Source of the DNA: Microcaldota archaeon
GTDB lineage: Archaea > Micrarchaeota > Micrarchaeia > Micrarchaeales > Micrarchaeaceae
Assembly: GCA_021827605.1 (NCBI GenBank)
Contig: JAKAVF010000006.1
Coordinates: forward strand, 1 to 46,640
Direction: 5' to 3'
Length of the DNA: 46,640 nucleotides
Each line of letters begins with the position of its first letter. Position 1 is the stretch's first letter. A program made the translations under genes and the position numbers. The notes under the pieces are model-generated. The model had not been told where the DNA came from and made no database searches. It worked only from the letters and a program-made list of their open reading frames with translations. This document shows positions 9,255 to 13,777 of this stretch, piece after piece.

Positions 9255-9268
9255 TGCTTAAATAAGCA
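9255..9268 (+). promoter_or_regulatory. Palindromic TATA box upstream of gatC
   Basis: TGCTTAAATAAGCA is an inverted repeat with a 2-nt centre that includes the AT-rich TATA element, 28-41 bp before the TTG start. Transcription would begin about 10 nt before gatC, just enough to include the GTGAT ribosome-binding site. Confidence 0.5.
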
Positions 9269-9295: not shown

Positions 9296-9583
9296 TTGGA
9301 TTACTGGAAGATAGACAAGGAACTGATTAACCGCATCGCCCTTATCTCGAAGCTGGATCTCAACGAAAGTGAGAGGATGCTTTTCCTAAAACAGTTGGGC
9401 GACGTGCTCGACACTTTCAAATTGATAGATGAGGTTGATACCGATGGTTTGGAGCCAGCATTCCATCCTAGAATCATAGAAAATATATGGAGAGAGGACG
9501 AGGCGAGTGAAACCGCGTGGGACCCTCTCGCAGATGTGGAAAGCAAAGAGGAAGGATATTATAAAGCCCCGCGGATCGTTTAG
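9296..9583 (+). CDS. gatC: Asp-tRNA(Asn)/Glu-tRNA amidotransferase subunit C
   Basis: 95-aa small subunit that stabilises GatA and wraps around GatB in the GatCAB complex. Typical features: IDKELINRIALISKLDLNESE at the N-terminus, LGDVLDTFKLIDEVDTDGLEPAFHP in the middle and a WREDE segment near the end (usually LREDxV). The start is TTG, 7 nt after GTGAT. The TAG stop is followed directly by the gatA GTG, so the two are translationally coupled. Confidence 0.93.
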   Translation: MDYWKIDKELINRIALISKLDLNESERMLFLKQLGDVLDTFKLIDEVDTDGLEPAFHPRIIENIWREDEASETAWDPLADVESKEEGYYKAPRIV

Positions 9584-10978
9584 GTGGTTTCATTAATACA
9601 GAGCCTTGTTAAATTGCATCTTGAGCGCCTTGCTGCAGAGGATGTGAAGCTGGATGACTTTGCACCCAGAGTCATGGAGAAGGCGAGGGCAATCCAGCAG
9701 AAATATTCTCCTTTCATTACCTTGGACGAAAATCTCGGCAGCACGAATAGGAATGCGCAGAAGCTCCCTTTTTCGGTAAAGGACAACATCTGCACAAATG
9801 GACTTAGGACCACGGCCGGTTCTAGAATATTAGAGAACTATATCCCGCCATTCGACGCTACATGCGTGCGCCAAGTGAAAAGTGCAGGTGGTTTTGTTAT
9901 CGGAAAGACAGCAATGGATGAATTCGGGTTCGGGACATTCTCGACAAACTGTGCATACGGCGCTCCCAAGAACCCGATAGATATACAGAGGGTATGCGGG
10001 GGCAGCAGTGGTGGCGCGGCATGCGTGACCGCAGCTGCAGATTTCCCACACATTGCAATAGCACAGTCGACAGGCGGCAGCATAACTGCACCTGCGGCAT
10101 TCACCGGAACTGTTGGGCTCACGCCTACTTATGGAAGAGTATCAAGGTGGGGGCTCATCGACTATGCGAACAGTATGGATAAGATCGGTGTTATTGGAAG
10201 ATGCACATACGATGCAGCTTTCGGCTTCTCGCTAATCGCTGGCCACGATCCTCTTGACGCAACCTCGCTGAATGCACCAAAACTCGATTACACGAAAGTT
10301 CTGGAAAAGGATATACGGCACCTCAGAATTGGGGTGCCGTCTGAGTATTTTAACGCGGATGGCGTAGATCCGCAGGTAAAGAAGCTTGTCTGGGATAAGA
10401 TCACCTCCCTTGAAAGGTTCGGTGCGACTTATGAAGAAATATCTCTTCCGTCTACGAAGTATGCGACCGCAGCATATTACCTAATTGCGCTCAGCGAGGC
10501 TTCCACAAACCTTGCAAAGTTCTGCGGGCTACGCTATGGAATCCAGGGAGAAACGGAAGGAAACTACGAGAACTATTTCTCGTCGATAAGGGAGAGGGGA
10601 TTCGGAGAAGAGGCAAAGCGGAGGATAGTTTTGGGGACCTACGCCAGGATGTCCGGTTACAGGGATGCATATTACATAAAAGCGCTTAAGGTAAGGGCGA
10701 AAATAATAGGGGAGTTCAGGAAGGCCTTTGACCGTGTAGGCGCGATTGCGACGCCGTCGATGCCAATATTTGCGCCAAGGTTTGATGAGGTTGCAGGGCT
10801 GACGCCGGTTCAGCAATATGCAATGGACATTATGACTACCGCACCCAACTTAGCAGGGCTCCCGACAGTATCCGTGCCAGCCGGAGAATCCGGAGGGCTC
10901 CCAGCAGGGGTGCAGTTCATTGGAGACTATGAAAATGAAGGGACTCTGCTGCAGCTGGCTGCTGCGTGTGAGGTTTGA
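9584..10978 (+). CDS. gatA: Asp-tRNA(Asn)/Glu-tRNA amidotransferase subunit A
   Basis: Glutaminase of the amidotransferase; the amidase-signature fold hydrolyses glutamine and channels ammonia to GatB. The catalytic Ser-cisSer-Lys triad is visible: K66 in PFSVKDNI, S142 in GGSSGGAA, S166 in STGGSITAPAAFTG. The usual GSDTGGSIR reads QSTGGSITA, a conservative change. 464 aa, normal length. GTG at 9584 abuts the gatC stop. In archaea GatCAB serves Asp-tRNA(Asn) (family knowledge), and the adjacent tRNA-Asn supports this. Confidence 0.96.
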   Translation: MVSLIQSLVKLHLERLAAEDVKLDDFAPRVMEKARAIQQKYSPFITLDENLGSTNRNAQKLPFSVKDNICTNGLRTTAGSRILENYIPPFDATCVRQVKSAGGFVIGKTAMDEFGFGTFSTNCAYGAPKNPIDIQRVCGGSSGGAACVTAAADFPHIAIAQSTGGSITAPAAFTGTVGLTPTYGRVSRWGLIDYANSMDKIGVIGRCTYDAAFGFSLIAGHDPLDATSLNAPKLDYTKVLEKDIRHLRIGVPSEYFNADGVDPQVKKLVWDKITSLERFGATYEEISLPSTKYATAAYYLIALSEASTNLAKFCGLRYGIQGETEGNYENYFSSIRERGFGEEAKRRIVLGTYARMSGYRDAYYIKALKVRAKIIGEFRKAFDRVGAIATPSMPIFAPRFDEVAGLTPVQQYAMDIMTTAPNLAGLPTVSVPAGESGGLPAGVQFIGDYENEGTLLQLAAACEV

Positions 10979-10980
10979 CT

Positions 10981-12384
10981 ATGAGCGTAATGATCGGAAT
11001 TGAGGTGCACTGCCAGCTCAACACCGCGAGCAAGCTGTTCTGCAACAGCAGCTCTGATCATAGAGGGAAAATGCCGAACGAGTGCACCTGCCCAATCTGC
11101 CTTGGTTTTCCGGGATCCAAACCGGTAGTCAACAAAAGGGCGATAGAGCTCGGGATGATGATTGCACTGGCTTTAAAGTGCAAGATCGCTGAAAAGATGT
11201 TCTTCTCTAGAAAGACCTACTTCTATCCGGACATGTCGAAGAACTACCAGATAACGCAGTATGAGGCGCCCCTTGCTGAGAGGGGCTTATTTACTTTAGG
11301 GGAGAACAAAATCAGGATAAGGCGTGTCCATATAGAAGAGGATCCTGCACGGCTAATTCATGTAGGTGGTGATATCACAAGCGCTAAGTACGTGCTTATC
11401 GACTACAACAGGTCTGGAATTCCCCTTGCAGAGATAGTGACAGAGCCAGATTTCACCGCTCCAAAGGAGGTCCGCGCGTTCCTGGAGAAGATGGTCAATG
11501 TCCTAGAGCACCTAGGCGCATACGATTCTGGAAAGGAGGCTACCTTAAGAGTAGACGCCAACATATCGACGGATGGCGGCGAAAGGGTTGAGGTCAAGAA
11601 TATAACCGGATTCGAGAACGTTGAGAAGGCACTCAACTATGAGATAATAAGACAGAGTAGTATGAAGCGCAGTGGAAACGTTGTCGTTAGGGAAACCCGC
11701 CACTTTGATGCGGACACTAACACAACGAAAAGCCTTAGGAAGAAAGAATATGAGGAGGATTACGGCTATATCTTCGACCCAGACCTGCCATCCGTAACAA
11801 TAAGCAGAGCTTGGCTTGAGTCCGTCGCTTCTTCCATGCCTGAGCTTCCGGACCAGAGAATAGAGCGGTTCGTTAGGCAGTACTCGATTGATGAGTATAC
11901 GGCAATGGTGATAGTTTACTCAGACAAACGCCTCGCAGACTTCTTTGAGGAGTGTTGTGCGCGCTACAATAAACCACCAACAGTCTCAAACTGGATCGTA
12001 AACTATCTCCTGAAGAGCCTCAATTGGCGCTCTGAGAGGATTTCGCAGTCGAAAGCAAGACCGGAAACCTTTGTCGAGCTGCTGCAGCTAATTGATGAGG
12101 GGAAAATAACAGACAGGTTTGCGAAAGAGCTAATCAAAGAGTATGTTGATACCGGAATATCTCCCAGGACACTTGCGCAGAAGGAGATTGTTGCGCTATC
12201 AGAAAAGGATTTAGATGAGATAATTGTTAAGGTTCTGCAGGCGAACGCCAATGCGGTTGAGGAATACCGCAACGGAAAGAAGGAATCTCTGCAGTTCCTG
12301 ATAGGAAAGGTCCTTTCTGAAACTAGGAAGCAGGGGAATCCGAAGAAGATAAAGGATTTGATAGTGAAGTTAATGCCTCGATAG
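10981..12384 (+). CDS. gatB: Asp-tRNA(Asn)/Glu-tRNA amidotransferase subunit B
   Basis: Binds the misacylated tRNA, phosphorylates the Asp/Glu side chain with ATP and transfers ammonia. 467 aa: N-terminal cradle domain from IGIEVHCQLNTASKLFCNS, with CTCPICLGFPGSKPVVN carrying the zinc cysteines; helical middle; C-terminal YqeY-like domain (about 390-467, KELIKEYVDTGISPRTLAQKE). ATG 10981 lies 2 nt after the gatA stop. The last 10 nt, including the TAG, lie inside the tRNA-Asn gene. Confidence 0.96.
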   Translation: MSVMIGIEVHCQLNTASKLFCNSSSDHRGKMPNECTCPICLGFPGSKPVVNKRAIELGMMIALALKCKIAEKMFFSRKTYFYPDMSKNYQITQYEAPLAERGLFTLGENKIRIRRVHIEEDPARLIHVGGDITSAKYVLIDYNRSGIPLAEIVTEPDFTAPKEVRAFLEKMVNVLEHLGAYDSGKEATLRVDANISTDGGERVEVKNITGFENVEKALNYEIIRQSSMKRSGNVVVRETRHFDADTNTTKSLRKKEYEEDYGYIFDPDLPSVTISRAWLESVASSMPELPDQRIERFVRQYSIDEYTAMVIVYSDKRLADFFEECCARYNKPPTVSNWIVNYLLKSLNWRSERISQSKARPETFVELLQLIDEGKITDRFAKELIKEYVDTGISPRTLAQKEIVALSEKDLDEIIVKVLQANANAVEEYRNGKKESLQFLIGKVLSETRKQGNPKKIKDLIVKLMPR

Positions 12385-12447
12385 CTCAGTAGGTAGAGCG
12401 ACTGGCTGTTAACCAGTAGGTCGCAGGTTCGAGTCCTGCTCGGGGCG
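12375..12447 (+). tRNA. tRNA-Asn (anticodon GTT), overlapping the end of gatB
   Basis: Cloverleaf with acceptor GCCTCGA/TCGGGGC, anticodon loop CTGTTAA in an ACTGG/CCAGT stem, T-arm GCAGG-TTCGAGT-CCTGC and discriminator G. No intron, no CCA. Its first ten bases encode the last codons and stop of gatB, so tRNA processing from a gatCAB transcript would cut the mRNA at the gatB stop. No separate promoter is visible. Confidence 0.97.
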
Positions 12448-12456
12448 CTTCATGCT

Positions 12457-13641
12457 TCACCGGCGCATATGCGCATATGGATTTGAAGGAAAGTTGGATA
12501 TATTGTAGGGGTTGAGCTTGAACGCGTCCTGCATTGCAACTGCTTTATTATCTAATGGGCCATCGACCCTGAATAGTTTCCCCTCCCTCTTCATAAGCAC
12601 GTTTGCATTGAGCGCTGGGTTGTGGCTCTCGATTATTATCGTCCCTTCCTCAAACTTCTTTTCTCCTGCTATGTAGTAAAGCAGGTGGCCGCCCCAGCCA
12701 TTATGAAAGAACGGATTGTAGATGTTTGATAGATATATTACGTTTGGCGCTGCTTTCGGTTTGACATTCCTAAGATATTTGTCTATGCTCTCGTTTAACG
12801 TATTTGTAACCGGAACCGGCCTGTAGAAGCTCTTCACCGGCCTTACTCCATACCTCACCCCGCTCTTTATCCTTGTTCTATGCTCACCGTGGAGAAAGTC
12901 CGCCATATATGGGTATTCCCCGACTTCTATCGCACCTATGACGCTGCCATCGAAGTCGCGAAGGCCGAAACACCCTCCCGCAAGGTCGCTCAGCCGCAGA
13001 GCAAATCCGCACGGCTTCTCCATGATTCTATAGGGTAAATTATCCTGTATGGGCGTTCCGTCCTTTTTACATAAGTCGAATCGCGAGTGGAAGAAGAGCT
13101 CGCATTCATCAAAAATTGAGATGTCGGGGCGTAGCGCGCCGCCTGCTATGAACTCTGTGATGATCGAACGGCCTCCTTCGGAAACTGCGCTTGCAATTTG
13201 GTCTGCTATCCAGGAAAGATGATGGAGTTGCACAGCGTTTATATCCAAAGCAACTGAACTCTGGAAGTGTTTGTGGGTTGCAAGAGCACCGAATAAGTTT
13301 AGGAACGCATCGCCGCCACCGGCAACACCGGCAAATCGCACATGTGGAAGATTCCCAGCCAGGCTTTCAAGCATCGAAACCACACATAGGTAACTTTCGT
13401 TGCTTGACTCGTAGTTTAGGCCCAGTTTGGCGGTGTCGATCTCCTGCTCCGCGTCCTTCACCCGCCGGGATACGCTGAAATGATTCGACCTTCTTGGTGC
13501 TTTTGCGGGAGGGTGCTTTAGTGCTCCTTCCTGCAGCGGCACTTGCCCCACTGATGGGAGTGGGGAGGCGAGGGTATCCTGGGCAATTACCGTGAGGTTT
13601 GCGCGCCCTGATGCTGGCTCTGCTCTTTCTGTGAGTACCAT
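12457..13641 (-). CDS. SAM-binding protein resembling BtaA/DUF3419
   Basis: 394 aa. The first 60 residues are low-complexity. Around residue 105, RFAGVAGGGDAFLNLFGAL followed by SSVALDINAVQLHHLSWI matches the glycine-rich loop and the DxN/Q segment of the Rossmann-like AdoMet fold. The later strand NVIYLSNIYN and EGTIIIES fit its C-terminal strands. The GGD...DINxxQL pattern resembles BtaA/DUF3419 proteins, which move the aminocarboxypropyl group of AdoMet. That is a family-level guess from motifs; the substrate is unknown. ATG 13641 follows GTGATGGTATCC, with a TATA-like ATTTAAATATC upstream. Confidence 0.6.
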   Translation of the reverse strand: MVLTERAEPASGRANLTVIAQDTLASPLPSVGQVPLQEGALKHPPAKAPRRSNHFSVSRRVKDAEQEIDTAKLGLNYESSNESYLCVVSMLESLAGNLPHVRFAGVAGGGDAFLNLFGALATHKHFQSSVALDINAVQLHHLSWIADQIASAVSEGGRSIITEFIAGGALRPDISIFDECELFFHSRFDLCKKDGTPIQDNLPYRIMEKPCGFALRLSDLAGGCFGLRDFDGSVIGAIEVGEYPYMADFLHGEHRTRIKSGVRYGVRPVKSFYRPVPVTNTLNESIDKYLRNVKPKAAPNVIYLSNIYNPFFHNGWGGHLLYYIAGEKKFEEGTIIIESHNPALNANVLMKREGKLFRVDGPLDNKAVAMQDAFKLNPYNISNFPSNPYAHMRR

Positions 13642-13777
13642 GGATACCATCACATTTTTCCTGATATTTAAATGCGTGGTTTCCCCAAAAAGTTGAAGTG
13701 AATCACTCCTGTTTTGTCTGCACGGCTGACGCTATGCTGGAAAACAGAAAAACAAGAAAAAGAAAGAAAAATTAGGA

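Follow-up and report, generated by a model that had tools for sequence, protein, structure and literature searches.

Asparagine transamidation in archaea is carried out by ND-AspRS and GatCAB acting on tRNA-Asn, and archaea that possess AsnRS have been described as having lost this indirect route (review PMC9499178). In Deinococcus, Thermus, Bdellovibrio and S. aureus, AsnRS and GatCAB occur together, and GatCAB is proposed to be the source of Asn when AsnA/AsnB are lacking (PMC4206432). In bacteria, GatCAB recognizes the 1-72 base pair and, in the D loop, base 20a (PMC9976931). The locus described here is located in the window, i.e. the whole 46,640-nucleotide stretch of DNA that was analyzed, which is the entire contig C51 of a draft archaeal genome of 971 kb (completeness 91.5%, contamination 2.7%) that is closest, among named genomes, to uncultured Micrarchaeota. 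With the dual-route bacteria it shares the coexistence of direct and indirect routes and the same proposed role in Asn supply, whereas those bacteria are not known to have a dedicated operon-encoded class of tRNA-Asn, and recognition in them is attributed to a U1-A72 pair, where G1-C72 is present here (PMC4206432). It resembles the archaeal transamidation pathway in its three GatCAB subunits, an archaeal-type AspRS, a tRNA-Asn with G73 and GUU, and GatDE for Gln, but differs in that the tRNA-Asn gene lies inside the gat cluster and that AsnRS and a second tRNA-Asn class coexist with it. Clostridium acetobutylicum reportedly (Saad et al. 2012, as cited in PMC4206432) has redundant, T-box-controlled amidation genes; redundant AspRS, GatCAB and AsnRS in one genome are the point of similarity and T-box regulation in a bacterium is the point of difference. 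The conserved gatCAB-tRNA-Asn cluster with its dedicated tRNA class, often found beside an AsnRS route, is a variant of a known pathway. A search of the open-licence literature found no published archaeal gatB-tRNA-Asn cluster.

The three amidotransferase genes touch or nearly touch, as the original prediction had stated, with gaps of 0 nt between gatC and gatA and 2 nt between gatA and gatB as read from the sequence of the contig. gatC (9296..9583, forward strand) has a TTG start and a TAG stop, and its product scored above cut-off against PF02686 (49.6 bits) and TIGR00135 (61.6 bits). The GTG start of gatA, which encodes the amidase subunit (9584..10978, forward strand, TGA stop), lies directly behind the gatC stop. 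GatA matched PF01425 with 364.9 bits and TIGR00132 with 441 bits, the latter slightly below the cut-off of 481 yet full length, and the Lys/Ser-Ser motifs SVKDN and GGSSGG are legible in its sequence. gatB (10981..12384, forward strand) runs from an ATG start to a TAG stop and encodes the domains GatB_N and GatB_Yqey (PF02934 and PF02637; Pfam/NCBIfam), with a score of 552 bits, above cut-off, against NF004012. A complete GatCAB set, consisting of GatC, GatA with its amidase signature and GatB with catalytic and YqeY domains, is therefore encoded together. The tRNA-Asn(GUU) of the gatB-linked class (12375..12447, forward strand; end at 12447/8) was assigned with ARAGORN and by class comparison; its Rfam score of 75.9 bits is the second best of any tRNA in the genome. 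It has an 8-nt D loop with an extra A (AGTAGGTA), the acceptor sequence GCCTCGA and the T arm TTCGAGTCC. Convergent with the cluster is a 398-aa ORF (12457-13653, reverse strand) that gave no Pfam or NCBIfam match.

The arrangement was compared among loci with the window type of GatB (identity down to 51%) for which sequence past gatB was present. In 19 of 19 such loci, including the window, tRNA-Asn was observed directly 3' of gatB on the same strand. The adjacency is non-random, and the predicted linkage between the enzyme and its substrate tRNA across Micrarchaeota is real and strongly conserved. The window GatB type occurs in ∼22 of the 148 genomes of the order, and many nearly complete genomes, same-genus ones among them, are without it. 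The complete 814-kb genome of ARM-1 (L257, equivalent to G024) carries the cluster, at about 31-34.2 kb of AP024486. In ten relatives the cluster is adjoined by aspS, which is positioned downstream in G113, G016, G018, G136 and G078 and upstream or divergently in G054, G006, G098, G088 and G102; the gene order in G113 and G016 is gatC-gatA-gatB-tRNA-Asn-aspS-tRNA-Asp. A second, divergent GatB type of 430-450 aa (L068-L075, ∼40% identity) was observed in a sister family; it was rejected as a locus of the same kind, as no tRNA was present within 1.5 kb.

Named genomes beyond Micrarchaeota were scanned for the cluster with a GatB alignment. In Bathyarchaeota, tRNA-Asn was found directly 3' of gatB at L251, L254, L255 and L256 and at a distance of 173 nt at L258. 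It lies near gatB in the aenigmarchaeotal locus L248, farther downstream at L249, L252 and L261, and directly 5' of gatC instead at L264, L272, L280 and L289. A quick GatB tree placed the 3'-linked loci in one group of Micrarchaeota, Bathyarchaeota and some Aenigmarchaeota. The linked tRNA-Asn genes of Bathyarchaeota also have the extra D-loop A, and their mean identity is 79% to the linked tRNA-Asn of Micrarchaeota, whereas identity to the remaining tRNA-Asn genes in the same Bathyarchaeota genomes averages 68%. AsnRS scored above cut-off in the Bathyarchaeota genomes G148-G151. At L251 (5407-5689), two tandem tRNA-Asn genes were observed behind gatB, in a genome with a third, different tRNA-Asn.

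Inspection of the tRNA-Asn genes revealed two classes. The extra D-loop A was present in all 19 linked genes and in none of 26 unlinked ones (Fisher 4e-13), a value that, given that the genomes are related and partly incomplete, overstates the significance. The acceptor stem and the T arm also distinguish the two classes, both of which retain G73, GUU and G1-C72. The original prediction had named a second tRNA-Asn gene and a true AsnRS among the findings that would refute it, and both are present in the window genome. Besides the linked gene, two intact tRNA-Asn(GUU) genes (C10 and C41), one degenerate copy (C45) and one partial copy (C10) were found. A true AsnRS is split over the end of contig C49 and the start of C14, which overlap by ∼40 codons; when joined, it scored 489 bits against NF003037 (cut-off 414), and its best structure match was the AsnRS 1x54. 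Contamination was ruled out by 74-80% identity to the AsnRS of four same-genus genomes (80% in G125, 79% in G036, and G008 and G086). Given the presence of AsnRS and further tRNA-Asn genes, the indirect route to Asn-tRNA is not the sole one, as the prediction had implied it to be.

Among cassette-bearing Micrarchaeota and their relative G136, the second class was detected only alongside AsnRS, namely in 11 of the 13 genomes that have AsnRS and 0 of the 7 that do not (Fisher 5e-4, overstated for the same reason). It was not found in ARM-1 and G016, both of which have AsnRS and, on inspection of the detected tRNA genes, yielded only the linked tRNA-Asn. AsnRS in these genomes must therefore be able to use the linked tRNA, and ARM-1 shows that the separation of routes by tRNA is not absolute. 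The related family f2 combines a divergent GatB with the other tRNA-Asn class, and some of its genomes have no detectable AsnRS; thus, the linked class follows the gat cluster better than the pathway as such.

The remaining enzymes bear on the substrate of GatCAB. GatD and GatE and a single GluRS/GlnRS-type enzyme are present in the window genome, and use of GatCAB for Gln is unlikely given GatD and GatE. Together with the tRNA-Asn linkage, their presence provides an indirect basis for the prediction that GatCAB amidates Asp-tRNA(Asn) rather than Glu-tRNA(Gln). AspRS scored above the cut-off of NF003483/TIGR00458; residues 26/85 did not separate the genomes and were thus uninformative with respect to discrimination. 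The AspRS genes (L031, L185-L243) form two old, strongly supported clades, and a single clade of cassette-linked AspRS was not found. G113 and G018 each encode one AspRS of each clade, the second one adjoining gatCAB. In nearly every Micrarchaeota genome searched, matches to the asparagine synthetase domain PF00733 were either missing or weak, and no canonical asparagine synthetase was found in the window genome, where the 357-aa hit scored 46 bits against AsnB, far below the 499 bits required.

We consider it probable that the cluster is a self-contained transcription unit of gatCAB and a dedicated tRNA-Asn for tRNA-dependent Asn synthesis, often operating beside an AsnRS route on the second tRNA class. 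Here, one transcript would provide gatC, gatA and gatB together with the substrate tRNA, and in several relatives aspS and tRNA-Asp would join them. A non-discriminating AspRS would charge the linked tRNA-Asn with Asp, which GatCAB would then amidate to give Asn-tRNA. The linked class would travel with gatCAB and the second class would be the main substrate of AsnRS, so that the two pathways would operate in parallel, each with its own tRNA. Retention of the pairing and of a special tRNA beside AsnRS suggests two such parallel routes. Amidation may also supply cellular Asn where asparagine synthetase is missing, and the gat unit is proposed to be the only identifiable Asn source of the window genome because a canonical asparagine synthetase is absent. 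The cluster is a possible source of Asn for host-dependent archaea that lack asparagine synthetase. Having its own distinguishable tRNA, it is a natural system in which to test the two routes separately, and with them how interference is avoided in dual-route cells and why both routes are kept. It also bears on the replacement of the indirect route by AsnRS in archaea. A broader reading, which we put forward tentatively and hold to be less likely than not, is that a portable gatCAB-tRNA-Asn cassette of several archaeal phyla constitutes a second Asn-tRNA pathway on its own isoacceptor, apart from the AsnRS/tRNA-Asn pair, with the D-loop A as a mark for GatCAB or AspRS. Since bacterial GatCAB reads a D-loop base, it is plausible that the fixed D-loop difference between the classes serves as a recognition mark.

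The same observations could reflect ordinary operon clustering, in which the tRNA simply stays beside the enzyme that amidates it, AsnRS and AspRS/GatCAB alike accept any tRNA-Asn, and the two classes record only ancestry, as two lineages joined by transfer. The single tRNA-Asn of ARM-1 and G016, which have both AsnRS and GatCAB, is consistent with this explanation, as are the G73, GUU and G1-C72 common to both classes and the U1-A72 tRNA-Asn described for dual-route bacteria (PMC4206432). However, the extra D-loop A is a fixed feature of linked tRNAs across two phyla, and only genomes that retain AsnRS retain the second tRNA gene as well; we regard clustering of this kind as unlikely. A different role was suggested by the gatB stop TAG (12382-12384, forward strand), which, as predicted, falls within the first ten bases of tRNA-Asn, forming U8-A9-G10. 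The final 10 nt of gatB are the initial 10 of the tRNA, and the final three GatB codons (M-P-R), like the stop, fall within or across its 5' end. It had been proposed that each transcript consequently gives either GatB or tRNA, with the RNase P cut destroying the gatB message as a built-in feedback. The stop is inside the tRNA in the window and eight further loci (overlaps of 10 nt in five of the nine and 18 nt in four), and T at -1 in 18 of the 19 linked genes would suit RNase P cleavage. In 10 of the 19 loci, however, gatB ends 1-33 nt ahead of the tRNA, where 5' cleavage would leave gatB intact; the stop inside the tRNA is thus not conserved among relatives, and an exclusive choice is unsupported as a conserved mechanism. 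Moreover, two different reading frames are used at the overlapping loci, translation could end before the tRNA folds, and similar overlaps exist elsewhere in the genome, where bases 8-10 of another tRNA-Asn form the end of an unrelated 105-aa ORF, and a tRNA-Ala contains the end of a 332-aa ORF. Such a switch is accordingly considered very improbable. In the window tRNA-Asn, each of the three reading phases meets a stop (at base 8, 16 or 36), so that an upstream gene losing its own stop would still be terminated. We propose that the overlap is tolerated because the tRNA gives a stop in every frame, and it is probably a by-product.

As to the predicted single transcript with no separate promoter for the tRNA, no clear TATA box was found upstream of tRNA-Asn inside gatB, the best TATA-like match being 5/8 positions, in a scan that discriminates poorly: TATA scores did not differ clearly among linked, unlinked and other tRNAs, and the scans fit both read-through and an internal promoter. 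Co-transcription of gatC-gatA-gatB-tRNA-Asn is the simplest reading, and a TATA-like cttaaataag (9258..9267, forward strand; read directly), which precedes the start codon of gatC by ∼30 nt, is a possible operon promoter. Alternatively, the tRNA may have its own promoter inside gatB, with adjacency reflecting genome compaction or a transfer unit rather than co-expression. The genome is compact, and AT occupies -2/-1 in 16 of the 19 linked tRNA-Asn genes; in G024 and G016, tRNA genes generally show a strong preference for A at -2 and T at -1 in their 5' flanks. This preference is weaker in the window genome and may constitute a processing signal or an initiator. A search of 800 kb of the 814-kb ARM-1 genome (L466-L505) with Rfam gathering scores and simple motifs also gave no RNase P RNA, in sequence that yielded SRP RNA, all rRNAs and ∼40 tRNAs. 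Given that RNase P ribonucleoprotein proteins are reported in all archaeal genomes surveyed (PMC6380272), a divergent RNase P RNA is the likelier explanation for ARM-1. The weak TATA-like match and the retention of order and strand over deep divergence argue against an internal promoter, to which we assign a low probability.

Two further observations were made on tRNA-Asn genes. Linked and unlinked copies from one genome (L185/L169 of G113 and L048/L167 of G036) have identical anticodon arms and different D and T arms, as if partly homogenized by gene conversion. In the window genome, the unlinked tRNA-Asn on C10 and a 3' copy of it bracket a stretch of ∼9.3 kb (G000:C10:9301-18712; L459:802-10213) that encodes, as named by eye, a tyrosine recombinase, a restriction-modification-like protein, a VirB4-like ATPase and an IS630-like transposase. 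This stretch is probably an integrative element with tRNA-Asn as its site.
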